This document shows positions 1 through 63,303 of a stretch of DNA of 64,000 nucleotides, in pieces. The DNA lies in assembly GCF_014333585.1 (NCBI RefSeq), contig NZ_JACSCW010000002.1:310001-374000 (forward strand), in the 5' to 3' direction. The first letter of the stretch is position 1, and each line of letters begins with the position of its first letter. This stretch comes from Hymenobacter sp. BT188. GTDB lineage: Bacteria; Bacteroidota; Bacteroidia; Cytophagales; Hymenobacteraceae. The translations under genes were made by a program, and so were the position numbers. The notes below the pieces were generated by a model. The model saw nothing but the letters and a program-made list of their open reading frames with translations. It ran no database searches and had not been told where the DNA came from.

Positions 1-146
1 AACGAACAATATTATTCATGGAAAGTCAGGTAAAATGGATGATTGGCTACCCAAACGCAGGTTTAAAGTAAAAGTTGGTGCCTCACCTGTTAGTAATTGA
101 GGCTGGGGGGCTTTTTAGGTTAATTATTTCCTTCATCATTTTCCCT

Positions 147-154
147 TAGCTTTG
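147..154 (+). promoter_or_regulatory. Candidate -7 promoter box of metK
   Basis: TAGCTTTG matches the Bacteroidota sigma-A -7 consensus TAnnTTTG and lies about 70 bases before the metK ATG. No clear TTTG -33 box is visible at the usual spacing. The 5' leader that follows contains short complementary segments (CTTAGC at 145-150 and GCTAAG at 181-186) before a T-rich stretch, so some leader structure is possible. I see no recognisable SAM riboswitch. Confidence 0.4.
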
Positions 155-222
155 CGGCCTTCCGCGCCTCTTGGCGCACGGCTAAGTTTCTTTTTTACCG
201 ACGACATTCTATCCCGACACTG

Positions 223-1482
223 ATGTCCTACTTGTTCACTTCCGAGTCTGTTTCGGAAGGCCATCCCGATAAAGTTGCCGATCAAATCTCTGATGCCATT
301 CTTGACGAGTTTCTTCGTCAGGATCCTGATTCTAAAGTTGCTTGCGAGACGCTGGTAACCACTGGCTTAGTAGTAGTAGCCGGTGAAGTGAAATCTAAGG
401 CTTACGTAGATGTGCAGTCAGTTGCCCGCAACGTTATTCGACGCATCGGCTATACAAAGGCTGAGTATAAGTTTGAAGCAGAAAGCTGTGGTATCCTGTC
501 GGCCTTGCACGAGCAGTCTCCCGACATCAACCAAGGGGTAGAGCGCCAAAGCCCCGAGGAGCAAGGTGCCGGCGACCAAGGAATGATGTTTGGCTACGCA
601 ACACGCGAAACCGACAACTATATGCCGCTGGCGCTGGATCTGTCGCATCGTTTGTTGCGTGAGTTAGCCGCTATCCGCAAGGACGGCAAGGAAATGACGT
701 ATCTGCGCCCCGATGCTAAGTCGCAGGTAACCATTCGCTACGCCGACGACAACACCCCCGAAGCCATTGATACTATCGTGGTCAGCACCCAGCACGATGA
801 CTTCGACGAGTCGGAAGCGGGCATGCTGAAGTGCATTTCGGAAGATATCCGCAACATTCTGATTCCCCGTGTGAAAGCTGGCCTAAGCGCCGATGTCCAA
901 AAGCTCTTTACCGACCAGATTACCTATCACATCAACCCCACCGGCAAATTCGTTATTGGCGGTCCTCACGGCGACTCTGGCTTAACCGGCCGCAAGATCA
1001 TTGTGGATACCTACGGCGGCAAAGGTGCGCACGGCGGGGGGGCTTTTTCGGGTAAAGATTCCTCCAAAGTTGACCGTTCAGCAGCGTATGCTGCTCGTCA
1101 TATCGCCAAAAACCTGGTAGCCGCTGGCGTAGCTGATCAAGTGCTGGTACAGGTAGCTTACGCTATTGGAGTAGCCCAGCCAGTTGGCCTTTACGTGACT
1201 ACGTACGGGACTACCAAAGCCAACGGCAGCAATGGCTTGCTTACCGATGGTGAAATTGCCGATAAGGTGAACAAACTGTTCGATATGCGTCCGTTCGCTA
1301 TCGTACAGCGTTTCGGTCTGCAGAACCCCATTTTTGGCGAAACGGCAGCGTATGGCCACATGGGCCGCGAAGCTGGCACTACTAAAGTGACGCTCGCCAA
1401 CGGCGAAACTCGCACATATGAGACCTTTACCTGGGAAAAACTAGATTACGTAGATAAGATCAAAGCTGAGTTTGGTCTGTAA
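223..1482 (+). CDS. metK: S-adenosylmethionine synthetase
   Basis: Cytoplasmic enzyme making S-adenosylmethionine from methionine and ATP, the entry to the methyl cycle; ahcY, which acts at the other end of that cycle, lies near 58.7 kb. The 419-residue protein has the family landmarks: the N-terminal GHPDK motif around residues 14-18, the GAGDQG nucleotide-binding loop around residues 115-120, and the glycine-rich GGGAFSGKD loop around residue 271. Length and start fit the family, slightly longer than E. coli MetK. The GGGAF codons contain one copy of the dispersed GGGGGGC motif. The gene stands alone, with a candidate -7 box upstream and a strong 16-bp hairpin terminator after the stop. Confidence 0.98.
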
Positions 1483-1910: not shown

Positions 1911-2798
1911 TTAAGCCTTTGGATGGGCTTTGTCAAAGACGGATTTGAGCTTGTCGATGGACAAGTGGGTATACACCTGAGTCGCTGCCAGATTCGCATG
2001 ACCTAGCAACTCTTTAATAGCGTTCAGGTCGGCACCCTTACTGAGTAGGTGCGTAGCAAACGAGTGCCGCAGCACGTGCGGGTGCTGCTGCGACGAAGCG
2101 GTGGTTATCTGGCTCAAATACTGCTTCACGGTGCGATACACAAGCTTTTCGTACAGGGGCTCTAGCTTATCTGTAACGAGGAGAAAACCGCGGGCGTTGT
2201 CGGGGGAAGCAAATTCAGCCTGCTTACGCGCTATATAGCTTTCCAGCGCTATAAGAAGCGTCGGATTGAGAGGCACTACCCGTTGTTTGTTGCCTTTGCC
2301 CGTTACGCGCACCGTACGACCTGCCAAGCTGATATCGTCGTGACGAATACCTATTAGCTCCGAAAGGCGAATACCAGTACCGTAGAGCAATTCCAGAATA
2401 AGCTGATCGCGGGAGCCAACAAATGAATCAGCAAACTCAAAGCTGTTGAGTAAGCCATTCAGCGTATCCTCTGGTACAAAGTCGGGAAGCTTTTTGGCCG
2501 TTTTGGGCGAAGTAATGCGCAGCATCGGATTGCGCTGAATAGCGCCCGTGCGCAATAAGTACTTGTAGTAGGAGCGGAGGCAAGCAATTTTACGATTCAC
2601 CGTGCGTGGGTCGCGCTGCTGCTGCATCAGCTCCACTATCCAGGAACGAATAAGGGTATGGTCGGCCTGAGCCGGCTCTGGCAACTCATAAGTAGCGAGC
2701 AGGTACTCAGAGAACTGCCGAAGATCAGTTTGGTAAGAAATTACGGTGTGCGGGCTGAAGCGCCGCTCAAACCGCAGATAGTCGAAAAACAAATTCAT
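1911..2798 (-). CDS. Xer-type tyrosine recombinase
   Basis: Site-specific recombinase of the XerC/XerD family, resolving chromosome dimers at dif. The 295-residue protein (ATG at 2798; a GTG 18 bases upstream is an alternative) has the N-terminal SAM-like core-binding domain and a complete catalytic set: Arg in GTGIRLSEL, the HVLRHSFATHLL box, the LLGHANLAATQVYTH box with the nucleophilic Tyr. Length matches XerC/XerD exactly and no mobile context is visible, so it is probably a housekeeping Xer protein. XerC versus XerD cannot be decided by eye. A seven-G copy of the dispersed motif ending in C lies just upstream of the start (2818-2825). Confidence 0.93.
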   Translation of the reverse strand: MNLFFDYLRFERRFSPHTVISYQTDLRQFSEYLLATYELPEPAQADHTLIRSWIVELMQQQRDPRTVNRKIACLRSYYKYLLRTGAIQRNPMLRITSPKTAKKLPDFVPEDTLNGLLNSFEFADSFVGSRDQLILELLYGTGIRLSELIGIRHDDISLAGRTVRVTGKGNKQRVVPLNPTLLIALESYIARKQAEFASPDNARGFLLVTDKLEPLYEKLVYRTVKQYLSQITTASSQQHPHVLRHSFATHLLSKGADLNAIKELLGHANLAATQVYTHLSIDKLKSVFDKAHPKA

Positions 2799-2868
2799 AC
2801 GCAGGAGTTCAGCCACTGGGGGGGCAATTATCCAATGTAAGAATTTAAATCGGAATTTTTGGACGCGA

Positions 2869-2912
2869 AAAAACCGGCTAATTCGCTTAAGTAAGCAAAT
2901 CAGCCGGTTGTC
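2869..2912 (-). terminator. rpsU terminator
   Basis: Interrupted inverted repeat with ACCGGCT/AGCCGGT outer stem and GCTTA/TAAGC inner stem. Read on the minus strand it ends in a run of six T, placing it correctly after rpsU. Confidence 0.75.
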
Positions 2913-2936
2913 ACGAAAAGCTTTGTAAGCTAAACG

Positions 2937-3131
2937 CTAGTAATTCTCAGTAGCGTACATGGTCTGCTTGTACACAGCTTTCTCTCTCTGTTTCCGCTTC
3001 GTGATAGAAGGCTTCTGGAAGAACGTACGACGACGCAATTCCTTCAGCACACCCGTGCGCTCGAATTTTTTCTTGAAACGCTTCAGAGCCCGGTCAACCG
3101 ACTCGTTGTCTTTGATTTGAACGATGATCAT
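2937..3131 (-). CDS. rpsU: 30S ribosomal protein S21
   Basis: The 64-residue, strongly basic protein matches bacterial S21 in length and sequence (MIIVQIKDNESVDRALKRFK start, followed by an Arg/Lys-rich helix with RRR). S21 joins the small subunit late and sits near the anti-Shine-Dalgarno end of 16S rRNA. In Bacteroidota this region of the ribosome is known to occlude the anti-SD, which fits the scarcity of SD sequences in this window. The gene is monocistronic, with its own terminator downstream and a GGGGGGC motif copy (3163-3169) in its 5' flank. Confidence 0.97.
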   Translation of the reverse strand: MIIVQIKDNESVDRALKRFKKKFERTGVLKELRRRTFFQKPSITKRKQREKAVYKQTMYATENY

Positions 3132-3263
3132 ATATGCAGTGGAGTTGAAAACTTTCTATTAAGGGGGGCAAAGATAATCACATCTTTTGAAGATTTAAAA
3201 ATGCTTACGCAGATTCCTAATCAATAGCTATTTGAGCCCCCGAAAGAATAGAGCCAATAAAGC

Positions 3264-4403
3264 CTATTTCAGGAGCGTGCGGGCAATAACCAGCTTTTGA
3301 ATTTCGGAAGTGCCCTCACCGATGGTGCAAAGCTTGGAGTCGCGGTAATATTTCTCCGCCGGATAATCCTTGGTGTAACCGTAGCCGCCAAAAATCTGCA
3401 CACCTTCATTAGCAGCCCGTACACATACCTCCGACGCATAGAGCTTAGCCATAGCCGATTCCTGCGTTACATTTAAACCACGGTCTTTCATGTCAGCAGC
3501 CCGGTAGGTTAGCAATGCCGCGGCTTCGATCTCAGTAGCCATATCAGCTAACTTGAATGCAATACCCTGAAAGTTGGAAATAGGCTGGTTGAACTGATGA
3601 CGCTCCTTAGAATATTGCGTAGCCGCCTCAAAAGCCCCCTGTGCAATACCCAGACTGAGGGCTGCGATAGAAATTCGCCCCCCATCAAGCACTTTCATCG
3701 ATTGAATAAACCCTTCACCTACTTCGCCCAGAATATTCTCCTTTGGTACGCGGCAGTCAGTGAAAATTAGCTCAGTTGTCTCAGAAGCACGCATACCTAA
3801 CTTGTCTTCCTTACGACCGTGCGTAAAGCCCTCGGTAGGCTTTTCAATTACGAACGCTGTCATACCATGCGAGTCACCTACCTCGCCAGTGCGGGCAATA
3901 ACTACGGCGATGTTGCTGCTTTTACCGTGGGTGATGAAGTTCTTCGCTCCGTTAAGCACGTAAAAGTCACCATCTTCAACAGCCACTGTACGCATATTAC
4001 CAGCGTCAGATCCTGTGTTGGGTTCCGTCAAGCCCCAAGCGCCAATCCACTCAGCCGAAGCTAGCTTCGGCAGCCACCTGCGCTTCTGCTCCTCTGAGCC
4101 AAATTGCAGAATGTGGCCTGTGCAAAGAGAGTTATGTGCTGCCATCGACAAACCGATGCTGCCATCAATCTTGGCTAGCTCAGCTATAGCAGTCACATAT
4201 TCAACGTAGCCAAAGCCGGAGCCACCATATTCTTGCGGCACCAGCACTCCCATCAGGCCCAAATCACCTAGCTGCTTGAACACGTCGATAGGAAACTCTT
4301 GGCTTTCATCCCACTGCATCATGCGCGGTTTGATGTGGGTGGCGCCAAAGTCGCGCACCATCTGGGCAATCATTGTTTGGTTCTCGGTAGCTACTAATTC
4401 CAT
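3264..4403 (-). CDS. Acyl-CoA dehydrogenase (short/branched-chain type)
   Basis: FAD enzyme that oxidises acyl-CoA to 2-enoyl-CoA in fatty-acid or branched-chain amino-acid breakdown. From the ATG at 4403 (MELVATENQ) the protein is 379 residues, the standard length; the upstream ATG at 4487 would add 28 residues not seen in the family. The [11 protein letters not shown] flavin/substrate signature and the C-terminal EGTSEIQ segment, with the usual catalytic Glu position, are present, as is the [13 protein letters not shown] signature. It is a lone gene with no electron-transfer flavoprotein genes nearby, so its substrate cannot be inferred from context. One GGGGGGC motif copy (3677-3683, antisense on plus) is in the gene. 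Confidence 0.95.
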
Positions 4404-4637
4404 GGGTGGGAAGTGATTTGGGTGGGTGGTAATGGCATAACCAGCAAGTGCCAGTTTTGGGTTCGCGAAAGTAGCACTTTGCTTCAAGAGAAGTTGATTT
4501 CCACAGACAGGTATCTAGCCCCGATTTTGAAAGGGTGTGCTAATTCGGTTACTTTGAAGGTTTATCGGGAGAAATTAAGCTAGTACTTGGCTATTCCCCG
4601 GGCACTATTTCATCTGTCTCTGGCTTTTTTGGCCCGC

Positions 4638-5558
4638 ATGCTACATCCCATATTTCGCCGCTTGCTATCCATTGGGTTGCTAAGCTTATCGTTTCTGATG
4701 TCGTTTTCCTGTACGACATCAAAGGTATACCGCCAAAATGTACTATTTCGTTTAGAGGGTACCACAGTCGACACTACTAGGCTGCGCACGACCATAAATA
4801 GGACGGAACGTAACTACATCATCCAGGCCAATGATTACCTCGATGTTCGGGTATACACTAATAAGGGCGAGCGAATATTAGATCCTAATGGTGAACTGCC
4901 ATTTGGCAACCCTGGCGGGCTAAGAGGTGCCACAACTCGGCCGGGAGCTGGTACACGCACTACGGCAGTTCAACAAGGCTCTGGTGGTACCACAAGTGGT
5001 GGTTCTGAGTTCCTTGTACAAGACGATGGCATAGTAAAGCTGCCAATGGTAGAGAACGTAAAGCTAAGTGGCTACACTCTTCTAGAGGCTGATAGTGTGT
5101 TGCAAGTAGCATATAGTCAGTACTATGAGCAGCCTTTCGTCGTGACGCGGGTTACTAATAATCGTATTATCGTGCTTGGTGCTGTTGGGGGCACTGGTGG
5201 TCAGGTCATCTCGATGACAAATGATAATATGAACTTGATTGAGGTTTTAGCCATTGCCGGGGGCATTGATGGCGGGGCAATAGGAACAGGTGGTAATCGA
5301 GTAGGCCGTACGACCAACATCCGCCTCATTCGGGGAGATTTGAAGAACCCGCAGATACAAGTTATTGATCTGTCTACGTTTGAAGGAATGCGTCGCGCTA
5401 ATTTACAGGTGGAACCCAACGACATAGTTTATGTTGAGCCTCTAAGACGGCCGTTTTACGAGGCATTAGCAGATGCTGGTCCAGTATTTGGGCTAGTGAC
5501 TAGCCTTATAAGCGTCCTTAGTACTCTGTATATTATAACAAGAGTATATAATAATTAA
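4638..5558 (+). CDS. Polysaccharide export outer-membrane lipoprotein (Wza/BexD-like)
   Basis: Probable outer-membrane exit channel for an exopolysaccharide or capsule. The ATG at 4638 gives 306 residues beginning with a hydrophobic signal and a Cys in the context MSFSC-TT, a slightly irregular lipobox; the open frame upstream starts only with TTG. After it come a polysaccharide-export (Poly_export) domain with the typical NDYLDVRVY beginning, interrupted by a Gly/Thr-rich insert around residues 85-130, an SLBB-like domain (VLGAVGGTGGQV, then LIEVLAIAGG) and a hydrophobic C-terminal segment (VFGLVTSLISVLSTLYIITRV) that may span the outer membrane, as in Wza. The co-directional tyrosine kinase follows 55 bases downstream. 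Confidence 0.9.
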   Translation: MLHPIFRRLLSIGLLSLSFLMSFSCTTSKVYRQNVLFRLEGTTVDTTRLRTTINRTERNYIIQANDYLDVRVYTNKGERILDPNGELPFGNPGGLRGATTRPGAGTRTTAVQQGSGGTTSGGSEFLVQDDGIVKLPMVENVKLSGYTLLEADSVLQVAYSQYYEQPFVVTRVTNNRIIVLGAVGGTGGQVISMTNDNMNLIEVLAIAGGIDGGAIGTGGNRVGRTTNIRLIRGDLKNPQIQVIDLSTFEGMRRANLQVEPNDIVYVEPLRRPFYEALADAGPVFGLVTSLISVLSTLYIITRVYNN

Positions 5559-5613
5559 GCTTGCTTTTCCTGTTGACGATAAGCTTGTTCCCTTCAACCA
5601 ATAGAATGCCCTG

Positions 5614-8067
5614 ATGGCGGCGAAAGAAGAAACTGAGCTGGAAGAGATGATCCGCAACGCGGGTGGTATGGAAGCAGAAGAAAAAGAGGATGCTGGCGAT
5701 GGGTTAGACATTACCACCCTGCTTCAGGTAGCCCGCAAAAGCTTGCCTTGGATTGCCTTGCTTATTGCTTTAGGTCTGACGGGCGCATGGCTGTTTTTGC
5801 GTTATACAAAGCCTGTGTATCAGTCATCCTCTGTTTTGAAGATTGACGAGAAGACAGAAGCAGGTTTGTTGGGATTAAGTGCCGGAGGAGCAGTAGAAAA
5901 GCGCCGACCCGGAGCTAATTTATCGGGTGAAGTAGAACTCATTAAGTCAAATCTGATCTATCGTAGGCTGAAAGACTCCTTAGCGCTCGACGTTAATTAC
6001 TATATTGAAGGTACTGTATTAGAATCAGAGTTGTATACTAGGTCGCCTTTTAAAGTGACATATAATATTAAAAATTCGGCTTTTTACAATCGAAAGTTCA
6101 GCGTTAATTTCAGTAGTCCTACGCGATTTCGACTTAGCTATTTAGAAGGTGAGCAAGAAGTAAGCGGTGTATATACCATCGGCCAACTAATTTATCTTGC
6201 TGGTCTGGATTTGCGATTAATTATTCATGAAAATTACTTCGACGCGAATGCACTTGACGCACAATTTTATTTTATTATTCTGGATGAAGGCACACTAAAT
6301 AACTATTTGAACACAAATCTGGCTGTTGAAATTGTTAATCCAGAGGCCAACACCGTCCAGATTTCTTTCAAAGATTTCAATCCATCAAAGGCTCAGGATA
6401 TAGTCAATAAGATCGACACAGTTTATTTACAGGAAAAGCTAGCTCAAAAGAAAAAGGCCTCAGATCAAAGCCTACAGTTTTTAAGCGAACAGGCCGACGC
6501 CTTCAATAATAAATTGCAGTTAGCAGAAGATAACCTGCAGTCATTTGCGCGTGAAAACCGGACGTACGATGTACGTGCTGATGCGGCAACTGTAAATAGT
6601 ACAATCCTTGCCCAGGAAGAGAAACGCCAAGAATTGATACAAAGGCAAGGTTTGCTGGCAGATCTTTCCAGTTTAGTAGAACAGGATCAGCTGACTGCAA
6701 ATGAGGATTCGACAGTGGCGCAAAGTATACCAGGGCTGGCAGAACTGGCCGACAGTCGCTTAACGCAAGAGATAGAGGCTTTAAATAATCAGCAGTGGGA
6801 GATTCGTCGGGTTTTGCGTTCTTATAAAGAAACGACTGAAGCTGTTAAACAGCGGCGTGTTCAGCTAGATTTTACGAGAAACACAATACGTCGGCTTCTA
6901 GAACAGAATAAAGTTCTTCTGCAAGAACAGGTTGAGAAAATGAACCGTCAGCGGGATGAACTGAATGCTAAACTTGATGCATTGCCGCAGAAGGCTACGC
7001 AACAGGCTAGGTTGCAACGCCCTTTCGAATTGTACGAGAAAACTTATGTAAATCTGATAAACAAGGACTTAGAATTTAGACTTGGCCAGGCTGGTACAAC
7101 GGCCGATTTTCAGATTCTTTCGCCTGCCAGCTTACCAAGCGCGCCTATTTCACCGGTGCGCGCCATGGTTTATGCCATTGGTTTGGCGGGAGGCCTTGTG
7201 CTAGGACTCGGATTAATTGCAGTCCGCTACTTCTTGCATGATACAGTAACAAATACGCGGGAATTGGAGCGTATGACCTCAGCGGCGTTGCTCGGCGTGA
7301 TTCCAACTTACGACAAGGAAAAGATGACAGTGTCGAAGCTGGTTGTGGACAAAAATCCTAAATCTGCTATTTCCGAATCGATCCGCTCTATCCGTACGAA
7401 TCTGGATTTTATAGGGTCAGCGCGAAAGAAGCGCATTATATCGGTTACATCAACCGTGTCAGGTGAGGGTAAAACTTTCGTAACAGTGAATCTGGGGGGC
7501 ATTATTGCTTTGTCAGAGCAGCGGGTTATCATCCTAGACCTTGATATGCGAAAGCCAAAAGTGAATCTGGCTTTCGGTACTGAGAATGTACGGGGCATCA
7601 GCACTATTCTGATTGAGAAGCACACTGTGGAGGAATGCATTCAACATACTGATATTCCAATGCTGGATTTTATCTCGGCTGGTCCCACACCACCAAATCC
7701 GTCGGAACTTATCCTAAACCCTAAGTTCGACGAATTGCTGGCTGAATTACATCAGCATTATGATGTGATTCTGATTGATACGCCGCCTGTCGGATTAGTA
7801 ACCGATGGTATTCTGATTATGCGTAAGGCTGATATTCCGCTTTACATTGTGCGAGCAGGATATTCCAAAAAAGCATTCCTGAAGAATATCAATAAGCTCA
7901 TGCGGACTAATAACTTTACTCGCCTCAGCACTATTCTAAATGACGCTAGTGCTGCCGGCCTAGCTGGGTATGGGTATGGCTATGGGTATGGCTATGGTCA
8001 AGGCTACTACGACGAGCCGACACCTCCCAAAGGAGTTATTAGCCGCCTGAAGCAGCGTATTTCCTGA
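5614..8067 (+). CDS. Wzc-like polysaccharide co-polymerase with bacterial tyrosine kinase domain
   Basis: Inner-membrane protein that controls exopolysaccharide chain length and export and autophosphorylates on tyrosine. Order of parts in 817 residues: short acidic N-terminus, first membrane segment about residues 46-64, large periplasmic Wzz/GNVR region with coiled coil (about 270-470), second membrane segment about 517-541, then a BY-kinase domain with Walker A (VSGEGKT, about 612-620), Walker A' (ILDLDMRKP, about 640) and Walker B (VILIDTPP, about 718). The tail holds a remarkable Gly-Tyr alternation followed by QGYYDE, replacing the usual tyrosine cluster. The adjacent phosphatase gene is its probable antagonist. 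One GGGGGGC motif copy lies in the kinase domain. Confidence 0.95.
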   Translation: MAAKEETELEEMIRNAGGMEAEEKEDAGDGLDITTLLQVARKSLPWIALLIALGLTGAWLFLRYTKPVYQSSSVLKIDEKTEAGLLGLSAGGAVEKRRPGANLSGEVELIKSNLIYRRLKDSLALDVNYYIEGTVLESELYTRSPFKVTYNIKNSAFYNRKFSVNFSSPTRFRLSYLEGEQEVSGVYTIGQLIYLAGLDLRLIIHENYFDANALDAQFYFIILDEGTLNNYLNTNLAVEIVNPEANTVQISFKDFNPSKAQDIVNKIDTVYLQEKLAQKKKASDQSLQFLSEQADAFNNKLQLAEDNLQSFARENRTYDVRADAATVNSTILAQEEKRQELIQRQGLLADLSSLVEQDQLTANEDSTVAQSIPGLAELADSRLTQEIEALNNQQWEIRRVLRSYKETTEAVKQRRVQLDFTRNTIRRLLEQNKVLLQEQVEKMNRQRDELNAKLDALPQKATQQARLQRPFELYEKTYVNLINKDLEFRLGQAGTTADFQILSPASLPSAPISPVRAMVYAIGLAGGLVLGLGLIAVRYFLHDTVTNTRELERMTSAALLGVIPTYDKEKMTVSKLVVDKNPKSAISESIRSIRTNLDFIGSARKKRIISVTSTVSGEGKTFVTVNLGGIIALSEQRVIILDLDMRKPKVNLAFGTENVRGISTILIEKHTVEECIQHTDIPMLDFISAGPTPPNPSELILNPKFDELLAELHQHYDVILIDTPPVGLVTDGILIMRKADIPLYIVRAGYSKKAFLKNINKLMRTNNFTRLSTILNDASAAGLAGYGYGYGYGYGQGYYDEPTPPKGVISRLKQRIS
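7966..8001 (+). repeat. Hexanucleotide tandem repeat encoding the Gly-Tyr tail
   Basis: Imperfect tandem copies of GGGTAT/GGCTAT, about five units, encode alternating Gly and Tyr at the C-terminus of the tyrosine kinase. Being a multiple of three, changes in copy number would keep the frame and alter the number of phosphorylatable tyrosines. Confidence 0.8.
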
Positions 8068-8091
8068 AATCAACTTTCTCTCATCTAGAAT

Positions 8092-8871
8092 ATGGCTTCA
8101 TTCCTGCGCAAGATTTTCGGCCAAGCGGCTTCTGCGTCGCTGGTTAACGAAAACTTGCTGGCGGAGCTTGGAGTTGACATGCACTCGCACCTCCTCCCGG
8201 GCCTAGATGATGGGGCCGAAACCATTGAGCAGTCATTAGGTTTGTTGGAGGCAATGCAGGCGCTAGGGTATCGGAAGCTGATTATGACTCCCCATATTAT
8301 GGGTGATTTTTATAAGAATACTCCCGCTACTGTTCACGCCGCATTAGCGCGAATGCAGGAAGCTGCTACGACTGCAGGCTTCGTGGACATACAGCTAGAA
8401 TGTGCCGCTGAATACTACTTGGATGAATGGCTGGGGGGGAAATTAGATAGTGTGGAAGAACTTTTAAGCTTTGGGGGCACCAAAAAATATCTGTTGTTGG
8501 AAACGTCTTATATGAACGAGCCCTTCAACATGCAGGATATAATCTTCCGGCTAAAAGCGCAGGGTTATCAGCCGGTATTGGCGCATCCTGAGCGCTACAC
8601 TTATTTATATGGTCGCTTTTCTGAGTTGGAAAAGATTCACGACAACGGCGTATTATTTCAAGTTAATCTCAACTCATTAGCTGGTTATTATTCCTCTGGC
8701 GCCCAGCGTATAGCCGAAAAGCTAATTGATGCCCGCTTAGTAGATTTTGTAGGTACGGATGCGCACAATCCTAAACACACCGAAACCCTGCGTAGTAAAG
8801 TGCTGCCTTTACCCTATTTAAAAAAAGTGTTGGCTCTGCCTCTCCTAAACAACACGCTGTTGACTGATTAG
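8092..8871 (+). CDS. CpsB/YwqE-type tyrosine-protein phosphatase (PHP family)
   Basis: Metal-dependent phosphatase of the polymerase-and-histidinol-phosphatase (PHP) superfamily that dephosphorylates BY-kinases in Gram-positive bacteria and in Bacteroidota capsule loci. The 259-residue protein shows the metal-binding motifs in order: DMHSHLLPGLDDG near residue 28, MTPHIM near residue 64, a Glu in LLLETSYM, AHPERY near residue 165, and GTDAHN near residue 224. It starts 24 bases after the kinase stop, on the same strand, so the kinase and phosphatase almost certainly form one operon controlling polysaccharide output. Confidence 0.92.
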   Translation: MASFLRKIFGQAASASLVNENLLAELGVDMHSHLLPGLDDGAETIEQSLGLLEAMQALGYRKLIMTPHIMGDFYKNTPATVHAALARMQEAATTAGFVDIQLECAAEYYLDEWLGGKLDSVEELLSFGGTKKYLLLETSYMNEPFNMQDIIFRLKAQGYQPVLAHPERYTYLYGRFSELEKIHDNGVLFQVNLNSLAGYYSSGAQRIAEKLIDARLVDFVGTDAHNPKHTETLRSKVLPLPYLKKVLALPLLNNTLLTD

Positions 8872-11448: not shown

Positions 11449-11470
11449 ATAACTCAAATTTTAACCTTTG

Positions 11471-11520
11471 AAACCAACTGTCATCCTGAACTCTACCTCG
11501 TTCAGGATGACAGTTGGTTT
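11471..11520. terminator. Perfect 21-bp hairpin after the TPR gene
   Basis: Arms 11471-11491 and 11500-11520 are perfectly complementary with an 8-base loop. The outer AAACC/GGTTT gives a T-containing 3' end. The core GTCATCCTGAAC with its inverted partner also looks like a palindromic dispersed repeat, so this may be a repeat acting as a terminator. Confidence 0.7.
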
Positions 11521-11550
11521 TATGGCTTACCTCTATCTGAACCAAAGCGC

Positions 11551-12381: not shown

Positions 12382-12403
12382 AACACTTAAGATATACGGT
12401 TGC

Positions 12404-12450
12404 TCAAAAAAGCCCCCTAGACTGCCATGTGCAGCGGCTGGGGGCTTTTT
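12404..12450 (+). terminator. Terminator after comA
   Basis: AAAAAAGCCCCC pairs with GGGGGCTTTTT across a loop of about 20 bases. This is the five-C version of the common terminator stem of this genome. Confidence 0.8.
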
Positions 12451-43434: not shown

Positions 43435-43460
43435 GGATTCGGCAGGATTTAGTCTACAGC

Positions 43461-44424: not shown

Positions 44425-44433
44425 AAATACAAG

Positions 44434-51136: not shown

Positions 51137-51439
51137 ATGAAAACTTCCTTTTTGTCTCGAATTGTGCTCCTGGGGGGCATTCTTGCCGTTTCGCTCACCA
51201 GCTGCAGCACCGGCACCGACCCAGGCGAAACCAACGTAGAAAGCGGCTCCGCGAAAGAGCAGGTAAACGAAAATAAGTCGGATGCCAACGACCCGGACGA
51301 TAAGCTCTACACGACCTCCGACGCTGCCACCAACGGCGCTACGGCCGATACCTCTACCGTAAAAACTGGCAAGCAGGTGTATGACGAAGCCGATGACCGC
51401 CGTGACGAAAACGTGAATGGCAAGGCCGGCCCACAGTAA
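51137..51439 (+). CDS. Small lipoprotein
   Basis: 100 residues with a signal peptide (MKTSFLSRIVLLGG...) and lipobox LTSC near residue 23; the mature part is short, acidic and low in complexity (NENKSDANDPDDK, TADTSTVKTGK), probably disordered. No family function known. One GGGGGGC copy is in the signal-peptide codons (51172-51178). A perfect host-type terminator follows. Confidence 0.75.
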   Translation: MKTSFLSRIVLLGGILAVSLTSCSTGTDPGETNVESGSAKEQVNENKSDANDPDDKLYTTSDAATNGATADTSTVKTGKQVYDEADDRRDENVNGKAGPQ

Positions 51440-51447: not shown

Positions 51448-51487
51448 ATAAAAAAGCCCCCCAGACTTGTCTGGGGGGCTTTTTTAT
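51448..51487. terminator. Bidirectional GGGGGGC-pair terminator
   Basis: AATAAAAAAGCCCCCCAGAC pairs perfectly with GTCTGGGGGGCTTTTTTATT (20-bp arms including outer A/T), between the small lipoprotein and the minus-strand btuG-like gene. Confidence 0.93.
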
Positions 51488-52627: not shown

Positions 52628-54604
52628 TTAGCGCCAAGTGAGGCGGAGACTGAGCGCGGCATTGCGGGGCGGCATGGCCCGGTAGGCATATACTTGGTAG
52701 TCGCGGTTGGTGAGGTTGAAACCTTGCGCCAGCACTGTCACGGCCCAGTTAGGCGCAATAGCCAGCGTCCGGCCCAGGCTAGCATTCAGTAGGGTGTAAG
52801 ACGGCAGGAAGTCGACGGCCGAAGCGTCGGTGTAGCGGTAGCCGGTGAAGGTGAGGCCAGTAGTAAGCTGCCATTTGTGCCAGCTCTGATCAGTAGTGAA
52901 GGCAAATGAGTGCAGCGGCACGTAAGGCAGCTGGCGACCCGAGGGGTCGGGGTCTTCAGCCCGGCCTTCTACCTTTTCCGACTCGGTAAAGCCATAAGCC
53001 GCACGCGCAACGAGTGAATAAGCCCCCCAGTGGCCAGTCAGCTGAGAACTGGCTTCCAAACCACGGGCGCGTACCTGGCGCAGGTTGCGCGGCGTATAAT
53101 CTCCTTGGGTATTCGGCAACCACTGCACCCAATCATTTACCAACTGGTGATAGGCCGTGAGTTCTGTTTGAAGATTCCAGGGGGCATTCTTAGTGAACTG
53201 ATGCCGCAGGCCAGCTTCGTAGCCAATGCCGTTTTCGGGGCGAAGGTTCGGGTCGCCTGTACGCCAGAAACGCTCGTTCAGGGTAGGCGCACGGTAGCTA
53301 CGTGAGGCACTGACTTTCAGCGATACTTGCTGAACAGGAGTTTGCCAAAACTGCCACTCGGCCCCCACGGTAGGAGCGAGCGGTGGCCGTCTGCCCGAGA
53401 TGAATGCCTGCCGCAGATTGGCCGTGAGTTGCAAGCGAGGAACAGGATCGTAGCGTAGCAGCCCGAAGCCAGAAAACCGGTTTTCGGACACTGGTTTTCC
53501 GTAGCCGTCCACTTCAGCCGCGAAGTGTTGCGCTTCGCCACCTATTCGCAGGCTCGCTTTTGAGTTGAAAGTAACTGTGTGTTCGGCCTGTGCCTGTGTG
53601 GTGCGGACACGCGAATTACTCGTCAGATCGTCGTTTTGGTAATCAATAACGTCCTCAAACCACGCTACCCGCACCGCCGACTCATGACGCCCGGAGGCTA
53701 CGTGGCGGTAGCCAGCCAGCAGGCGGCGGCTTTGGTCTTGCTCGCGAGCATGGTTGTTGCCTGAGCCAATGGCGGGCTGAAGCTGCCGGTCGGCATCCGT
53801 GAGCCAGATGGCCGCCATGAGCTCGCCATGCTCCCCCAAACGCAGAGTGGCATCCTGACTTAGGCTCCACTGGCGCACAGCCGCATTCTGCTGCCGCCGA
53901 CGTACTAAGCCCGTTATTTCGGGTGAGTTATAGGGAAAATCGTTGCGGGCTTCACGGTAGGAAGCCGCCGTACGCACAGCTACTTTTTGGTTGCTAAAGC
54001 GACCTTCCAGACTCCCAGCCTCCAAACCATACTGGCCCGCATCAAGCTGTGCGCTTACTTGGGTGCCTGCTCCCCATCGAATAGGCGAGGAAAGTAGTAC
54101 GGTGCCGCCCACGGCGCCGGTGCCATACGTAGCGCCGGCGGGTCCATGTTGTACATCAACTCTGGTATTGCCACCGGCAGGTAAAAGGGCAAAATCAGCC
54201 TCTCCTAGCGAAGGCAAGTTGATATTGAAGCCATTCCACAGCACTGCTGTGTGCCTGGCCGAGGTACCCCGAATGGTGATAGAAGACAGCTGTCCCGGCC
54301 CGTAGTTCTTAATAAATAAGGGTGTGCGTGCCGCTAGTACGTCTGTAAGTGTGCCCGTGCGGTACTGAGTTAGGGCCAACGAGTCGATAGTAGTGAGGCG
54401 GCTTCCTACGGCAAACCGGCCGGGGCGGGCGGCCTGTACCCGCACATCGGGCAACACCTGAACGGTAGAAAGCTGACTGGAATCGGAAGGTGAACTACCG
54501 ACGGCGTGAGTCTGCTGGGCCTGACTAGAAGAAGCGCCGAAAAAGCCCCCCAACAACCCAATTGCCGCCAAAAGCCAGCGCCGCCAAAATCTTTGTGTAC
54601 GCAT
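52628..54604 (-). CDS. btuB: TonB-dependent outer-membrane receptor, vitamin B12 (BtuB)
   Basis: 658 residues with a signal peptide (cleavage near SSSQAQQ, residue 29), a plug domain (about 50-175: LTTIDSLALTQYRTGTLTDVL, SSITIRGTSARHTAVLWNGFNI, GPAGATYGTGAVGGTVLL), and a 22-strand barrel ending in aromatic-rich LSLRLTWR. A cobalamin riboswitch lies upstream and a BtuG-like lipoprotein gene downstream, so the substrate is almost certainly cobalamin or cobinamide. No btuFCD transporter genes are in the window. Three motif copies (two with six C) occur in it or near its start. Confidence 0.93.
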   Translation of the reverse strand: MRTQRFWRRWLLAAIGLLGGFFGASSSQAQQTHAVGSSPSDSSQLSTVQVLPDVRVQAARPGRFAVGSRLTTIDSLALTQYRTGTLTDVLAARTPLFIKNYGPGQLSSITIRGTSARHTAVLWNGFNINLPSLGEADFALLPAGGNTRVDVQHGPAGATYGTGAVGGTVLLSSPIRWGAGTQVSAQLDAGQYGLEAGSLEGRFSNQKVAVRTAASYREARNDFPYNSPEITGLVRRRQQNAAVRQWSLSQDATLRLGEHGELMAAIWLTDADRQLQPAIGSGNNHAREQDQSRRLLAGYRHVASGRHESAVRVAWFEDVIDYQNDDLTSNSRVRTTQAQAEHTVTFNSKASLRIGGEAQHFAAEVDGYGKPVSENRFSGFGLLRYDPVPRLQLTANLRQAFISGRRPPLAPTVGAEWQFWQTPVQQVSLKVSASRSYRAPTLNERFWRTGDPNLRPENGIGYEAGLRHQFTKNAPWNLQTELTAYHQLVNDWVQWLPNTQGDYTPRNLRQVRARGLEASSQLTGHWGAYSLVARAAYGFTESEKVEGRAEDPDPSGRQLPYVPLHSFAFTTDQSWHKWQLTTGLTFTGYRYTDASAVDFLPSYTLLNASLGRTLAIAPNWAVTVLAQGFNLTNRDYQVYAYRAMPPRNAALSLRLTWR

Positions 54605-55104: not shown

Positions 55105-55710
55105 ATGGCCACCAAATTGCCCCCCAGCTTCTACCGTCGCCCCGATCCTGTCCAAATTGCTCGCGAGTTGCTCGGCAAGCATGTTTTTTCAAACCTGAAT
55201 GGTGAGCTGACGGGTGGTCGCATTGTGGAAGCCGAGGCGTATTCTCATGTCGGCGACAATTCCCTTACGATGCACCTCAAACGGCGTGGAAAACACGCAC
55301 AGCCTTTGCTGGAGCCGGGCGGCCATGCGTATCTCTATCAGGTATATCAACGGCATACTCTGTTCAACATCAGTACCAATGAAGCCAATAAGCCTGACAC
55401 TGTGCTCATTCGGGCTATTGAGCCCTCAGAAGGAATAGAGATAATGCTGCAGCGACGCGGCCAAGCAATAATTTCTCCTAAACTGACTGCTGGCCCAGGC
55501 TTACTTACGCAGGCCCTGAATATTACGCCTGCTCTCACCGGTACTGACCTACAAGGCGACATTCTTTGGCTAGAAGACCATGGCGAAATAATTCCCGACG
55601 AGCAGGTGAAGCGTAGCCCACGCGTAGGCCTAGCCTATGCCGGCGATGAAGCAGCCAACCTGCCTTGGCGCTTTCGCATCATCGGCAGTCCATGGACAAG
55701 CAAAGCCTAA
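55105..55710 (+). CDS. mpg: DNA-3-methyladenine glycosylase (AAG/MPG family)
   Basis: Base-excision-repair enzyme removing alkylated purines. 201 residues, typical for bacterial MPG. Landmarks: ARELLGKHVFS near residue 18, GRIVEAEAYSH near 37 with the catalytic Glu, GGHAYLYQVYQRHTLFNIST near 72, VLIRAIEP near 98, and a GPGLLTQALNI segment near 132. The DNSLTMHLKRRG stretch diverges from the common ASHAYRGRT version. Divergent from btuB across the riboswitch. One motif copy near its start (55119). Confidence 0.92.
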   Translation: MATKLPPSFYRRPDPVQIARELLGKHVFSNLNGELTGGRIVEAEAYSHVGDNSLTMHLKRRGKHAQPLLEPGGHAYLYQVYQRHTLFNISTNEANKPDTVLIRAIEPSEGIEIMLQRRGQAIISPKLTAGPGLLTQALNITPALTGTDLQGDILWLEDHGEIIPDEQVKRSPRVGLAYAGDEAANLPWRFRIIGSPWTSKA

Positions 55711-57090: not shown

Positions 57091-57681
57091 CTAGCGCAAA
57101 TTCCAACGCAAAGCCAACTGAGGTTTGCCCGTGGGAGCAGCAGTAAGACCTACAGCAGCAGGCGATATACGCTGAAAAACGCTCCCGCGGGCAGCAGGCC
57201 AGCTTGCGTTATGCGCTTCTACAGCTCGTTGAAAATGAGTATTGGTGTTGCGGCTGATGAACACATTAGCCAGCAAACTGGCAGCGGCTACACCTATTGC
57301 AATCTTCTGTGGATTGCTGAAGTAGCGCTCCTCGCCTTCGCCCGCCAGCACCTGTTGGCCATAAAAGCCTAAGGCGCCTACAAAAGTTAAACGCTCGGCC
57401 AAGAACAGCCATTTTTGCTGCCGGTAGCGATTTAAGTGGTCTAAAGCCTGGGTATTACCAGCCAAATAAGGACGCAAACGCTGCCCAAAAAAGCCGGCGT
57501 TCTGGTACTCATTATTACCCTGGGGGGCAAAATAGAAGTTCTTTTGGGAGCCATTCAGGCCACGGCCTTGGTCCTCAGGGCTAAGGCGCAAAATAGTGGG
57601 AGTTTGCTGAGCGTGCGCACCCCTAAATGTTAGCAAGAAGCTGAGCAATAAGGCAAAAGAACGAAAAGGATGGATATTCAT
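57091..57681 (-). CDS. Secreted protein of unknown function
   Basis: 196 residues from the ATG at 57681 (MNIHPFRSFALLLSF) with signal peptide cleaved after AHA near residue 25. The mature part has a hydrophobic segment (IAIGVAAASLLANVFISRNT) and strands near the C-terminus (KPQLALRWNLR) that could be a small outer-membrane-associated fold. No family recognised. It lies 38 bases upstream of the methyltransferase gene on the same strand. One GGGGGGCAAAA copy (57522). Confidence 0.6.
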   Translation of the reverse strand: MNIHPFRSFALLLSFLLTFRGAHAQQTPTILRLSPEDQGRGLNGSQKNFYFAPQGNNEYQNAGFFGQRLRPYLAGNTQALDHLNRYRQQKWLFLAERLTFVGALGFYGQQVLAGEGEERYFSNPQKIAIGVAAASLLANVFISRNTNTHFQRAVEAHNASWPAARGSVFQRISPAAVGLTAAPTGKPQLALRWNLR

Positions 57682-60032: not shown

Positions 60033-60070
60033 AAAAAGCCCCCCAGATACCATCCGGGGGGCTTTTTTGT
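60033..60070 (+). terminator. ahcY terminator built from a GGGGGGC inverted pair
   Basis: AAAAAGCCCCCCAGAT...ATCCGGGGGGCTTTTTT; canonical host terminator, with one mismatch beside the G run. Confidence 0.93.
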
Positions 60071-60183: not shown

Positions 60184-60951
60184 ATGCTCCTTTCTCTCTC
60201 CGTCGTCATTATTACGTTTAATGAAGAGCGCAACATCGGCCGTTGTCTGGATGCGCTTGGCGACATTGCCGATGAAGTAGTAGTGGTTGACTCTTTCTCA
60301 ACCGATAAGACAGTAAGCATCTGCGAGAGTCGGCAGGCCCGAGTTGTTCAGCACGCTTTTGCCGGCTACGTGGAGCAGAAGAATTTCGCCACGGCCCAAG
60401 CTCGCTTCGATCATGTGCTCCAACTCGATGCCGATGAAGTGCTGACTGATGAGCTGCGCCAAAGCATTCGAGAGGCAAAGCAGAACTGGCAGGGCGCGGG
60501 CTACACCTTAGCTCGTCTCACAAATTACTGCGGTACCTGGGTGCGCCACGGCGGCTGGTACCCCGACCGGAAGCTGCGCCTCTACGACCGGCGCCTAGGT
60601 CGCTGGACTGGCCTGCTCCTGCACGAGCGCTACGAAGTGACTGGGGGGCAAAATATCGGCGCCTTATCCGGCGACTTGCTCCATTACTCCTACGATTCGG
60701 TAGCACAACACGTCGCGCAGCTCAACCGTTTTACCAGTATTGCGGCCGAGGAAATGGTGCTACGCGGTAAGCAAAACGCTACGCTTTTTCATCTTCTGCT
60801 CAAGCCTATCTGGAAGTTTGTGCACGGTTATTTTCTGCGTCTGGGCTTTTTAGATGGTTTTGCCGGTCTGTGTATCGCCAGCATTTCTGCGGGGGGCGTT
60901 TTTTTAAAATACGCCAAGCTGCGTACTCAATCGACACCTTCCGCTAAATGA
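60184..60951 (+). CDS. Family 2 glycosyltransferase (WaaE/KdtX-like)
   Basis: 255 residues from the ATG at 60184 (a TTG 9 bases upstream is less likely). GT-A fold with SVVIITFNEERNIGRCLDAL at the start, VVVDSFSTDKT, and the catalytic LQLDADEVL near residue 81. The C-terminal part with FVHGYFLRLGFLDGFAGL matches the LPS core beta-glycosyltransferase branch. It overlaps the next gene by 4 bases (ATGA). First gene of an LPS or glycan operon. Two GGGGGGC copies. Confidence 0.92.
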   Translation: MLLSLSVVIITFNEERNIGRCLDALGDIADEVVVVDSFSTDKTVSICESRQARVVQHAFAGYVEQKNFATAQARFDHVLQLDADEVLTDELRQSIREAKQNWQGAGYTLARLTNYCGTWVRHGGWYPDRKLRLYDRRLGRWTGLLLHERYEVTGGQNIGALSGDLLHYSYDSVAQHVAQLNRFTSIAAEEMVLRGKQNATLFHLLLKPIWKFVHGYFLRLGFLDGFAGLCIASISAGGVFLKYAKLRTQSTPSAK

Positions 60952-61991
60952 AAACCTTTCTGGTAAGCCGGACCGATGCTATTGGCGACGTGGTATTAAC
61001 CTTGCCCGTTTGTGGGCAGCTGAAGCGCTTGTTTCCGGGCTGTCGGGTGGTGCTTATAGGCCGCACGTACACACAAGCCGTGGCAGAGGCTTGTCCGCAG
61101 GTTGATGGATTTATCAATGTAGATGAGTTGCTAAAATTGCCTCCCAGCGCACAAGTTGGGTTACTAAGAGCAGCGGAAGCTACCGCTATTATTCATGTTT
61201 TCCCCAATAAAGCACTGGCTCGGTTGGCGCAGCAAGCAGGTATACCGACTCGTATCGGCACGCGCAACCGCTGGTTTCATTGGCTGACTTGCAATCGGCT
61301 GGTGGCTTTAAGTCGCCGTCACTCTCTTCTGCATGAAGCCCAGCTAAATCTACAACTGTTGAGCCCTTTAAGCGCTATTAAAGCCGATTTACCATTAGCT
61401 GAGGTAGCTGTCCTAAGTAAGCTGCAGCCAACAGAGCCGTTGGGGGGTAATTTTAGACAGTTGCTTGAGGCTCGTAAAACTGGGCAACTCAATATCATTT
61501 TACATCCTAGTTCGCGTGGCAGCGCCCGCGAATGGGGCCATGACCATTTTGCCACCCTTGCGCATTTGCTACACCAAGCTGGACATCGTGTATTCATTAC
61601 CGGCACTGCTGCTGACGGCGAAATGTTACGCCCGTGGCTTACAGAACATGCTGCTGCTCTTAGCGCAGACTTAACTGGGCAACTCTCCCTACCCCAGCTT
61701 CTAGCGTTTATTCACGCCACCGACGGATTGGTAGCGGCCAGCACGGGCCCGTTGCATCTGGCCGCCGCACTGGGCCGACATGCTCTAGGCATTTATCCGC
61801 CCCTGCGACCTACCGACCCCGGGCGTTGGGCACCGCTCGGGCCTTATGCTGAGTACCTCGTGTTCGACCGTCCCAACTGTACCGATTGCCGGATGCAGCC
61901 TGCGGCTTGCACCTGCGTGCGTGCAATTAAGCCGGCGCAGGTGTTGGCACGTATTTCGGGGTGGCAACCGTTAGCTATTTCTGCATCCTGA
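60948..61991 (+). CDS. Family 9 glycosyltransferase (heptosyltransferase-like)
   Basis: 347 residues of the GT9 family, which adds heptose or related sugars to lipid A core. N-terminal SRTDAIGDVVLTLPVCGQLK, central LNIILHPSSRGSAREWGHDHFATLA nucleotide-sugar region, and the C-terminal ASTGPLHLAAALGRHALGIY motif. A cysteine cluster near the C-terminus (PNCTDCRMQPAACTCV) is conserved in many Bacteroidota members. Start overlaps the GT2 stop by 4 bases; the ligase-like gene follows 4 bases after its stop. Confidence 0.92.
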   Translation: MKTFLVSRTDAIGDVVLTLPVCGQLKRLFPGCRVVLIGRTYTQAVAEACPQVDGFINVDELLKLPPSAQVGLLRAAEATAIIHVFPNKALARLAQQAGIPTRIGTRNRWFHWLTCNRLVALSRRHSLLHEAQLNLQLLSPLSAIKADLPLAEVAVLSKLQPTEPLGGNFRQLLEARKTGQLNIILHPSSRGSAREWGHDHFATLAHLLHQAGHRVFITGTAADGEMLRPWLTEHAAALSADLTGQLSLPQLLAFIHATDGLVAASTGPLHLAAALGRHALGIYPPLRPTDPGRWAPLGPYAEYLVFDRPNCTDCRMQPAACTCVRAIKPAQVLARISGWQPLAISAS

Positions 61992-61995
61992 TATT

Positions 61996-63303
61996 TTGGC
62001 GTTAATTTCTCATTCTGCTCCTCCTACCTCCTTACTGCCAAGTTTGCGTCAAGCTTGGCAACAGGGCCGCGTGTCACAATATCTCTTGTTGCTGGCTTGT
62101 GTGGCTGGGGTCGTTGGCCTTTTTGCTTCACGAGCATTGGTAGCGCTGAGCCCGGTGGTGGGCGTAGCTGCCGCCGTAGCTAACCCCAATGCACGACTGG
62201 CTTTGGCGCAATGGCTGCGCAATAAATCAGCCTGGAGCTTGGCGCTGTTGTACCTATTGTTGGTAGTAAGTGGCTTGTACACTGAAGACTGGCCAGTTTG
62301 GCAGCACCAGATGTATCGGCAGCTTCCCCTGATAGGTGTGCCATTGGCCTTCGCCTTGGCCGTGCCGCTCAGCGGCCGTCAGCGCTATACAGTTGGGTGT
62401 GTGTTCGTGGCTGGGGTTACGCTTATAGGCGGCGCCACGGTTGTTCGTTATCTGCTCAATCCGCTTTTCAATAACGAACTGATTATGATGGGACAAAATA
62501 CCCCTTCCGTAACGGGCATATTCCACATTCATTTCGGCCTGATGCTGGCCTTGGCTGCTTACTTCGGGCCGCTATTAAGCCGTAGTACGTATGCGGGGAA
62601 GGTTGCGCGGGTGTTGCTGATTCTGGGGGGCATTTCTGCGGCCATAGCGCTGCATGTTTTGGCCTATCGAACGGGGCTATTGGTGCTCTATGCCGCTTTG
62701 CTGGTAAATGGAGTGCTGCTCATTGTTAGGCAGCGGCGCTTTCTGTTGGGGGGCATTTTGCTGGCCTTCCTGTTTATTGTGCCATTCCTGACTTATAATT
62801 TTCTCACCTCTTTCCGTTACCGAGTGCTAGGCACGGCCTACGATATATCCCAATTTTCTGCAGATCGGGATATCAATGACTTCTCTGTATCGCAGCGCTT
62901 CGCCGCTTGGGAAACAGCCCGTGTAATCACCACTTTTAGGCCGTGGGTGGGCGTAGGCCTTGCCGATGTGCGGGCTGAGATGATGCGCCAGTACGAATGG
63001 CGTGACTATGGGCTGACGCCCGCCAACCGCGTCATGATTCATAATCAATACCTGCACTACCTAGTGGGGGGCGGCTTAATCGGCTTGTTTCTTTGGCTGC
63101 TGGTTCTGCTTGGACCGCTGGCGCAACCTAGTTTGCGTAGAAACCCGTACGTGATACATTTCCTGGTCGTAATGGGCACCGGAATGCTGGTTGATTCACT
63201 GTTGGAGCTGCAAATAGGCTTCAACTTATTCGTGTTTCTTTACGGTTTTCTTGTGGTGGCCGGTGAGCGCCGCAGCCAAGAGGCTGTCGTGAACCTTCCC
63301 TGA
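61996..63303 (+). CDS. O-antigen ligase-like membrane protein (Wzy_C)
   Basis: 435-residue inner-membrane protein with about ten to twelve hydrophobic helices and a large periplasmic loop, matching O-antigen ligase/polymerase (Wzy_C) proteins: VGVGLADVRAEMMRQYEW followed by MIHNQYLHYLVGGGLIGLFLWLLVL is the family signature with the conserved His. The likely start is TTG at 61996, as no early ATG is in frame; GTG at 62072 is less likely because it is 76 bases in. It would join glycan to lipid A core made with the two preceding transferases. Three GGGGGGC copies. Confidence 0.88.
   Translation: MALISHSAPPTSLLPSLRQAWQQGRVSQYLLLLACVAGVVGLFASRALVALSPVVGVAAAVANPNARLALAQWLRNKSAWSLALLYLLLVVSGLYTEDWPVWQHQMYRQLPLIGVPLAFALAVPLSGRQRYTVGCVFVAGVTLIGGATVVRYLLNPLFNNELIMMGQNTPSVTGIFHIHFGLMLALAAYFGPLLSRSTYAGKVARVLLILGGISAAIALHVLAYRTGLLVLYAALLVNGVLLIVRQRRFLLGGILLAFLFIVPFLTYNFLTSFRYRVLGTAYDISQFSADRDINDFSVSQRFAAWETARVITTFRPWVGVGLADVRAEMMRQYEWRDYGLTPANRVMIHNQYLHYLVGGGLIGLFLWLLVLLGPLAQPSLRRNPYVIHFLVVMGTGMLVDSLLELQIGFNLFVFLYGFLVVAGERRSQEAVVNLP

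Follow-up and report, generated by a model that had tools for sequence, protein, structure and literature searches.

A clade-specific iterated word in Hymenobacter with the signature of a DNA uptake sequence

Here we report that a short word, CTGGGGGGC followed by an A-tract, is iterated in the genomes of one clade of Hymenobacter, where it is strongly maintained, clade-specific and largely restricted to the chromosome, and that it bears the signature of an uptake sequence. The stretch of DNA analysed (the window) is 64 kb of Hymenobacter sp. BT188, positions 310001-374000 of contig C13 in the 5.0-Mb assembly G000, in which a preliminary description had likened the repeated GGGGGGC to the DNA uptake sequences (DUS) of Neisseria and the uptake signal sequences (USS) of Haemophilus. 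The likeness is borne out by copy number, use of both strands and of several reading frames, inverted pairs, flank, conservation, clade distribution and scarcity on plasmids and in an island, and does not extend to the proposed route through type IV pilins, which is not supported. On this evidence we give a probability of roughly 0.55 to the prediction from sequence that the word is a pilus-independent tag by which cells would take up DNA of their own kind, and we rank it above a chromosome-organising site, a by-product of repair and a Chi-like site, in that order.

Iteration, form and placement of the word

The window holds exactly 50 copies of GGGGGGC (28 on the plus and 22 on the minus strand), in agreement with the earlier estimate of about 50; the expectation of about 8 given with that estimate assumed even base use and becomes 12.0 in 100 dinucleotide-preserving shuffles (sd 2.9, maximum 20), and the excess stands. 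For TGGGGGGCWWWW the count is 32 where 0.15 would be expected, and runs of six G (51) are commoner than runs of five (44) or seven (3), a non-monotonic series. All seven inverted pairs described earlier were counted, together with 36 unpaired copies, one more than had been given, and T precedes the run in 27 of the 36, a number that agrees with the description. Four of the 54 runs of at least six G lack a trailing C (two stand before A, two before T), where three had been noted, and one of these, at window position 8433, is GGGGGGC in both aligned relatives.

The preliminary description had proposed a genome-wide count, which gives 2,721 copies of TGGGGGGCWWWW in the 5.0 Mb (1,393 plus, 1,328 minus) against a single copy of the reversed word (1 plus, 0 minus). 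Much of the genome-level work was carried out on 464 kb of this assembly with 358 mechanically called open reading frames (ORFs), and the top 9-mer there is CTGGGGGGC, seen 200 times where 8.3 were expected. Over 100 rounds of synonymous-codon shuffling of the ORFs, the expectation for GGGGGGC was 73 ± 8 against 254 seen (copies in overlapping ORFs being counted twice), and that for TGGGGGGCWWW was 8.7 ± 3.0 against 155 seen; the shuffle is a generous null, because it retains the motif's own codons. Agreement with a codon- or dinucleotide-preserving null, which the preliminary description had named as the first ground for abandoning its reading, was thus found neither here nor in the window. 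Iteration of a short non-palindromic word to about one copy per 1-2 kb, far above nulls, is a trait shared with DUS and USS.

The logo built from 300 aligned single copies of the 464 kb is asymmetric: it reads (c)TGGGGGGC, then five positions that are mostly A/T, and carries almost no information beyond about 14 bp. The motif takes the form cTGGGGGGC plus an A-tract (AnTm, with few TpA): among single copies whose C is followed by four A/T, 17 of 255 flanks include a TpA step, compared with 56% of all A/T tetramers that follow a C. The flank is therefore an A-tract rather than merely A/T-rich, which may point to recognition by shape. The near-zero information outside the ~14 bp led us to reject an origin from mobile elements (repetitive extragenic palindromic elements, REP, or miniature inverted-repeat transposable elements, MITE), and where aligned DNA lacks the motif, the difference is mostly a matter of substitutions or of a G run one base longer or shorter. 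Phase variation at the G run is not supported either, as runs of seven are rare in the 464 kb (15, against 389 of six; runs of five number 349).

Of the 382 copies in the 464 kb, 252 lie inside ORFs (134 sense and 118 antisense, with no clear preference of orientation), where they use all six frames, unevenly and with four frames common, in line with the several frames described before. The other 130 lie outside ORFs, on 12% of the DNA. Inverted pairs hold 72 of the 382 copies; four of the seven pairs in the window were folded and gave strong terminator-like stems followed by U (T) runs, and from these folds termination is predicted. With 252 copies in ORFs the enrichment is not confined to terminators, the second ground on which the earlier reading could have been given up, and an origin solely from terminators was rejected on the same count.

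The sites in the window are listed below. The relatives named are H. qilianensis and H. roseosalivarius, to which the window is 89.2% and 82.8% identical, respectively, over about 20 kb.

105-111, plus: single copy with A/T flank, intergenic, upstream of metK
1037-1043, plus: copy within metK, in a run of seven G, TTTTT flank
2819-2825, plus: copy in a seven-G run, AATTAT flank
3163-3169, plus: core after A, AAAGAT flank
3677-3683, minus: core, GAATTT flank
7494-7500, plus: genic single copy, conserved in H. roseosalivarius
9315-9321, plus: genic single copy, conserved in H. qilianensis
9700-9706, minus: genic single copy, conserved in both relatives
13131-13137, plus: genic single copy, conserved in both relatives
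13853-13859, plus: genic single copy, conserved in both relatives
14004-14010, minus: genic single copy, exact word in neither relative (one G short; one substitution)
14343-14349, plus: genic single copy, conserved in H. roseosalivarius
15051-15057, minus: intergenic single copy, conserved in H. qilianensis
15607-15613, plus: genic single copy, GTTTT flank, conserved in both relatives
17525-17531, minus: intergenic single copy, conserved in H. roseosalivarius
17791-17797, plus: genic single copy, conserved in H. roseosalivarius
18662-18668, minus: genic single copy, conserved in both relatives
19239-19245, minus: genic single copy, conserved in H. roseosalivarius
20043-20049, plus: genic single copy, conserved in H. 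roseosalivarius
22706-22731, unstranded: inverted pair (22706-22712 minus, 22725-22731 plus), terminator-like stem after uvrB, fold -23.4 kcal/mol, z -5.2
23328-23334, minus: intergenic single copy, conserved in H. qilianensis
24104-24110, plus: genic single copy, conserved in H. roseosalivarius
26880-26905, unstranded: inverted pair, terminator-like stem, fold -28.0 kcal/mol, z -6.7
28000-28006, minus: single copy, AAAAA flank
30304-30328, unstranded: inverted pair, terminator-like by sequence
31437-31458, unstranded: inverted pair, terminator-like by sequence
34460-34485, unstranded: inverted pair directly left of the integrative island
34545-44473, unstranded: integrative island with zero full motif copies (negative control within the window), bounds approximate
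39038-39044, minus: core alone inside the island, without A/T flank, likely chance
46251-46257, minus: single copy, ATTTT flank
46722-46728, minus: single copy, TATTTT flank
47354-47360, plus: single copy, TTTTTT flank
51172-51178, plus: single copy, ATTCTT flank
51456-51479, unstranded: inverted pair, terminator-like stem, fold -27.8 kcal/mol, z -5.4
53022-53028, minus: single copy, TTATT flank
54545-54551, minus: single copy, TTTTT flank
55119-55125, minus: single copy, AATTT flank
57522-57528, plus: single copy, AAAATA flank
60038-60062, unstranded: inverted pair, terminator-like stem, fold -24.2 kcal/mol, z -5.2
60643-60649, plus: single copy, AAAATAT flank
60891-60897, plus: single copy, GTTTTTTT flank
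62625-62631, plus: single copy, ATTT flank
62748-62754, plus: single copy, ATTTT flank
63066-63072, plus: core alone, without A/T flank

Spread along a chromosome was assessed in the related genome G186, whose chromosome is complete, over 26 stretches of 20 kb and accepting five or six G. The 261 plus and 242 minus copies show no local strand bias (chi-square 25.1, 26 df, p 0.51), the spacing is even (variance 11.0, below the mean of 19.3 per 20 kb), and no clear gradient along these stretches was seen by eye. Similarly balanced is contig C11 of G000, with 70 plus and 64 minus copies of TGGGGGGC in 200 kb. Density in G000 is less even: TGGGGGGCWWW occurs 5 times and once in the 20-kb starts of contigs C15 and C18, and 5 and 4 times in two 20-kb stretches to the right of the window, against 8-15 in 18 other stretches of that genome.

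Clade restriction, upkeep and scarcity in acquired DNA

Across 120 Hymenobacter genomes, four carry 1,955-2,721 copies of TGGGGGGCWWWW and 116 carry at most 22. The four bearers are the window's genome, H. roseosalivarius, H. qilianensis and G186; only the same four stand out in a family-level draw of 200 genomes, and an order-level draw of 390, which included two of them, had 76 copies in the next highest genome. An AroE tree of 32 rows groups them as a single clade with 100/100 support, and the branch leading to it measures 0.41 changes per column; AroE identities are 94-98% within the clade and 76% to H. nitidus, the nearest listed non-bearer. As separate observations, G287, which belongs to the same order but is more distant, shows a weak independent enrichment (76 TGGGGGGCWWWW, 0 for the control), and the reversed word WWWWCGGGGGGT reaches 38-45 copies in genomes G053, G090, G173 and G185, 20 in G197 and 12 in G168, with about 10 or fewer in the others.

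Conservation between species, a check that the preliminary description had proposed, was followed in an alignment with G186 (233 kb, 87.9% identity), where GGGGGGC is kept at 134 of 187 sites and is one G shorter at 28 more; in the reverse direction 134 of 179 G186 sites are kept. All 64 classes of G/C-only 7-mers pooled, GGGGGGC included, are kept at 1,652 of 3,717 sites, and none is kept better than GGGGGGC. The difference holds among codons for the same amino acid (codons with gaps were left aside, and 20 of the 207 sites did not align): GGG is kept in 98 of 103 cases within the motif against 294 of 535 outside it (p 1.5e-17), and CCC in 83 of 86 against 638 of 971 (p 1.5e-11). Alleles one G short (GGGGGC) in G186 fall inside ORFs in 14 of 29 cases and outside in 15, and several lie in H. 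qilianensis genes. Because they lie partly inside ORFs, we take them as probable homopolymer errors of long reads, which in both assemblies (CP060784 for H. qilianensis) affect many motif copies and would create false frameshifts.

Outside the clade the word is nearly absent from the same positions. A test of 18 sites, five of them intergenic, left 10 genic positions with matches among 28 outgroup loci (3 of the 13 genic sites had none), and GGGGGGC was found in 1 of 167 rows. Residues at these 10 sites are identical in 51% of outgroup comparisons (259/509), against 62% gene-wide (44,176/70,710); the word therefore settled in tolerant places.

The word is also scarce on the plasmids sampled, which were those of H. 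qilianensis, the second replicon of G186 and plasmid-like contigs of G000. Counted as [CT]GGGGGGCWWW, its chromosomal density per kb is 0.65-0.83 in G000, 0.66 in G186, 0.75 in H. roseosalivarius and 0.475 in 200 kb of H. qilianensis (0.805 with five G also allowed). Among the four H. qilianensis plasmids the counts are 1, 0, 1 and 1 for 50, 50, 50 and 35 kb (3 in 185 kb); the second replicon of G186, 190 kb long, has 8 in the 80 kb sampled. In G000, nine small contigs together have 4 in 146 kb (11 with five G allowed), the label plasmid-like resting on two of the nine, for which the best-ranked records in a comparison of the first 8 kb are Hymenobacter plasmids; GC-rich ones may be contamination. 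One of the H. qilianensis plasmids (CP060787) carries adjacent genes annotated with TIR, SIR2 and Piwi domains at 10179-14318, likely an Argonaute-type defence locus.

Within the window, the 9.9-kb island at 34545-44473 has no full motif copy. It encodes a tyrosine integrase, an AAA-domain protein, an HNH nuclease and an acyltransferase, lies between repeats of a tRNA-Gly end that are identical over at least 40 bp, and is absent from H. qilianensis and G186. The DNA next to it, at about 30.3-34.5 kb, bears the motif and is present in H. qilianensis and missing in G186. Location in the core genome and scarcity in acquired DNA are further traits in common with DUS and USS.

Other lineages of the genus iterate a different word. 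CCTAGG numbers 5,585-8,806 copies in 6 of the 120 Hymenobacter genomes, 1,209-2,331 in 4 and at most 888 in the rest, and reaches 2,190-8,806 per genome in H. setariae, sp. BT559, H. polaris, H. crusticola, H. cavernae and H. wooponensis, named species that fall at three separate places in the AroE tree. In four species pairs, none of which includes H. wooponensis, it is better kept than other palindromic 6-mers: 46/64 against 182/594 in the closest pair, then 10/24 against 94/464, 14/33 against 62/294 and 12/30 against 72/292. CCTAGG is thus a second highly iterated word, palindromic and found outside cyanobacteria. A third word is possible in H. latericoloratus and H. sediminis, where GGGGGTAG(G) / (C)CTACCCCC is over-represented; several high k-mers in a survey of 31 related loci and the window's own look like codon-driven GC words. 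GGATCC is nearly absent (at most 10 copies) from about 30 of the 120 genomes, against 60-325 copies in many others, which suggests widespread avoidance of a BamHI-type site.

A predicted uptake tag and its rivals

If the word is an uptake tag, the cells would be naturally competent, like Riemerella of the same phylum, and a surface receptor would read the G run and the A-tract together, so that free DNA of the same clade would enter in preference to foreign DNA. ComEC would import the word-bearing DNA, and DprA and RecA would recombine it. On the clade stem, repeated import of word-bearing alleles could have multiplied the word through point substitutions, and such import may now maintain it.

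ComEC was found in 8 of 8 assemblies (7 Hymenobacter species), and DprA and a triple helix-hairpin-helix (HHH) protein of 337-417 aa were each found in 10 of 10 Hymenobacter genomes. The surroundings of the ComEC and HHH genes, viewed by eye from the first residues of their ORFs, gave no telling receptor candidate. PF00437, the motor family of the type IV pilus and the type II secretion system (T2SS), was searched for in 10 Hymenobacter genomes, the four bearers included, without a match, whereas each of the 14 control genomes matched, 13 of them above the cut-off; on this result a type IV pilus receptor, and with it the receptor route through type IV pilins put forward earlier, is not supported. 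Transformation of Riemerella anatipestifer requires ComEC, DprA, ComF, RecA and a triple HHH protein, together with an outer-membrane carboxypeptidase-regulatory-like protein, a predicted fimbrium protein and a DUF1343 protein, and type IV pilus genes are absent from the mutant table, in the portion of the report cited (PMC8459023). R. columbina favours its own DNA, and the candidate k-mers given in the cited part of that account are A/T-rich (PMC7965970). Bacteroidota therefore include a transformation route that involves no known type IV pilus, and Hymenobacter may use a Riemerella-like, pilus-independent one.

Several points weigh against uptake. Known uptake-sequence systems rely on type IV pilus machinery, and the motor was missing from all 10 genomes searched. 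ComEC, DprA and the HHH protein occur in the tested non-bearers too and so do not explain a word confined to one clade. No report of competence in Hymenobacter was found in the open-access literature, which leaves subscription journals mostly uncovered; nor, within the same bounds, was an earlier report of the iterated word. Once five-G cores are counted along with six-G ones, the numbers become 5, 0, 7 and 4 on the H. qilianensis plasmids (16 in 185 kb) and 15 in the sampled part of the G186 second replicon, below the chromosomes though not zero. Scarcity on plasmids also fits a chromosome-binding protein, and the plasmids may be recent arrivals. The resemblance of CCTAGG to the cyanobacterial highly iterated palindrome HIP1 hints that the process need not be uptake. 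One view of CCTAGG and the G-run word makes them dialects of a single function; another makes them products of a HIP1-like process, which would weaken the uptake reading. The wider proposal, that Bacteroidota possess sequence-specific uptake of self DNA without type IV pili and that words of both kinds (CTGGGGGGC plus A-tract, CCTAGG-type) split the genus into transformation communities, is one that we put forward tentatively, as somewhat less likely than not.

The foremost competitor, itself unlikely, is a binding site for a chromosome-organising protein peculiar to the clade, acting on the nucleoid, segregation or domains. Narrow-groove binding proteins favour A-tracts, and such a protein would suit the flank as well as the even spread along the G186 chromosome and the few copies on plasmids. 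Neither strand polarity nor a clear gradient was seen in the 26 stretches, however, and inverted terminator pairs and some 2,000-2,700 copies per genome typify uptake words; we know of no chromosome-organising site present in such numbers.

A by-product, functional or not, of methylation-directed mismatch repair or biased gene conversion, as in HIP1, is also improbable. Because other Hymenobacter lineages iterate CCTAGG, by the thousands and better kept than other palindromes, a cause other than uptake retains some weight, and the density of the word here is near the one site per 1,000 nt or so of Elhai's repair model, as set out in the part of the paper cited (PMC4390886). Against this, the word is non-palindromic with an A-tract of 4-5 bp, where HIP words are palindromes, and resident plasmids should have been affected, yet those of H. 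qilianensis, the G186 replicon and the plasmid-like contigs of G000 hold few copies.

Still less probable is a Chi-like recombination site that shields chromosomal ends from a RecBCD/AddAB-type nuclease. The word is G-rich, asymmetric, chromosomal and scarce in foreign DNA, as such a site might be. Chi sites are usually oriented with replication, and Chi words are 5-8 bp long and lack an A-tract and inverted pairs; the balanced strands of the complete G186 chromosome show no local polarity, and Chi or segregation polarity was rejected on those counts, so that the recombination hotspot listed as an alternative in the preliminary description lacks the replication polarity of the Chi kind. An RNA-level or terminator element with stray copies in genes, which the seven inverted pairs, the four strong stems with their T runs and the 130 copies outside ORFs might recommend, is refuted for single genic copies by the 252 copies in ORFs without clear orientation and by their upkeep at synonymous sites, and we regard it as very nearly eliminated.

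Significance and comparison with known systems

To our knowledge, uptake words come only from Neisseriaceae and Pasteurellaceae, both of which use type IV pilus machinery. An uptake label for "self", if the prediction is true, would be new for the phylum Bacteroidota; self-recognition in bacterial sex would have evolved at least once more, in a group in which no pilus motor was found, and word-bearing DNA should transform members of the Hymenobacter clade better. Some 2,000 or more copies were apparently gained on one branch, against at most 22 in 116 congeners, and this natural experiment permits measurement of the gain, upkeep and cost of such words.

In copy number the word is on the scale of the DUS of Neisseriaceae, whose receptor is ComP: the Neisseria genomes named in the source cited hold 943-3,236 copies of their uptake word (PMC3630211), and both are non-palindromic words of about 10-14 bp. 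Like DUS, the word has genic copies in permissive places and inverted pairs at terminators, and is specific to a clade. It is unrelated to DUS in sequence and belongs to another phylum, and because no pilus motor was found, a ComP-type minor pilin is not expected in Hymenobacter.

Pasteurellaceae USS have a 9-bp core, an A/T-rich flank, even spacing and terminator pairs. The Hymenobacter word likewise joins a core to an A/T flank and shows even spacing and terminator pairs; it differs in that the A-tract abuts the core, that a second, helically phased tract was not seen, and that the pilus motor is missing from the genomes searched.

With cyanobacterial HIP1 the word shares a density of about one copy per kb, specificity to a lineage and, going by the passages cited, the occurrence of exceptional words in some species (PMC4390886). 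It is unlike HIP1 in being asymmetric, with an A-tract, and scarce on the sampled plasmids.

In machinery, transformation in Riemerella is a parallel: it shares ComEC, DprA and a triple HHH protein, and the mutant table cited lists no gene for a type IV pilus (PMC8459023). The two differ in that no convincing uptake word is reported for Riemerella in the part of the account cited, where the k-mers visible are A/T-rich (PMC7965970). The Hymenobacter word may thus be viewed as one that works like DUS, and it is not filed under the ComP or Pasteurellaceae systems because the motor of the pilus machinery that marks them was not found in the 10 genomes searched.

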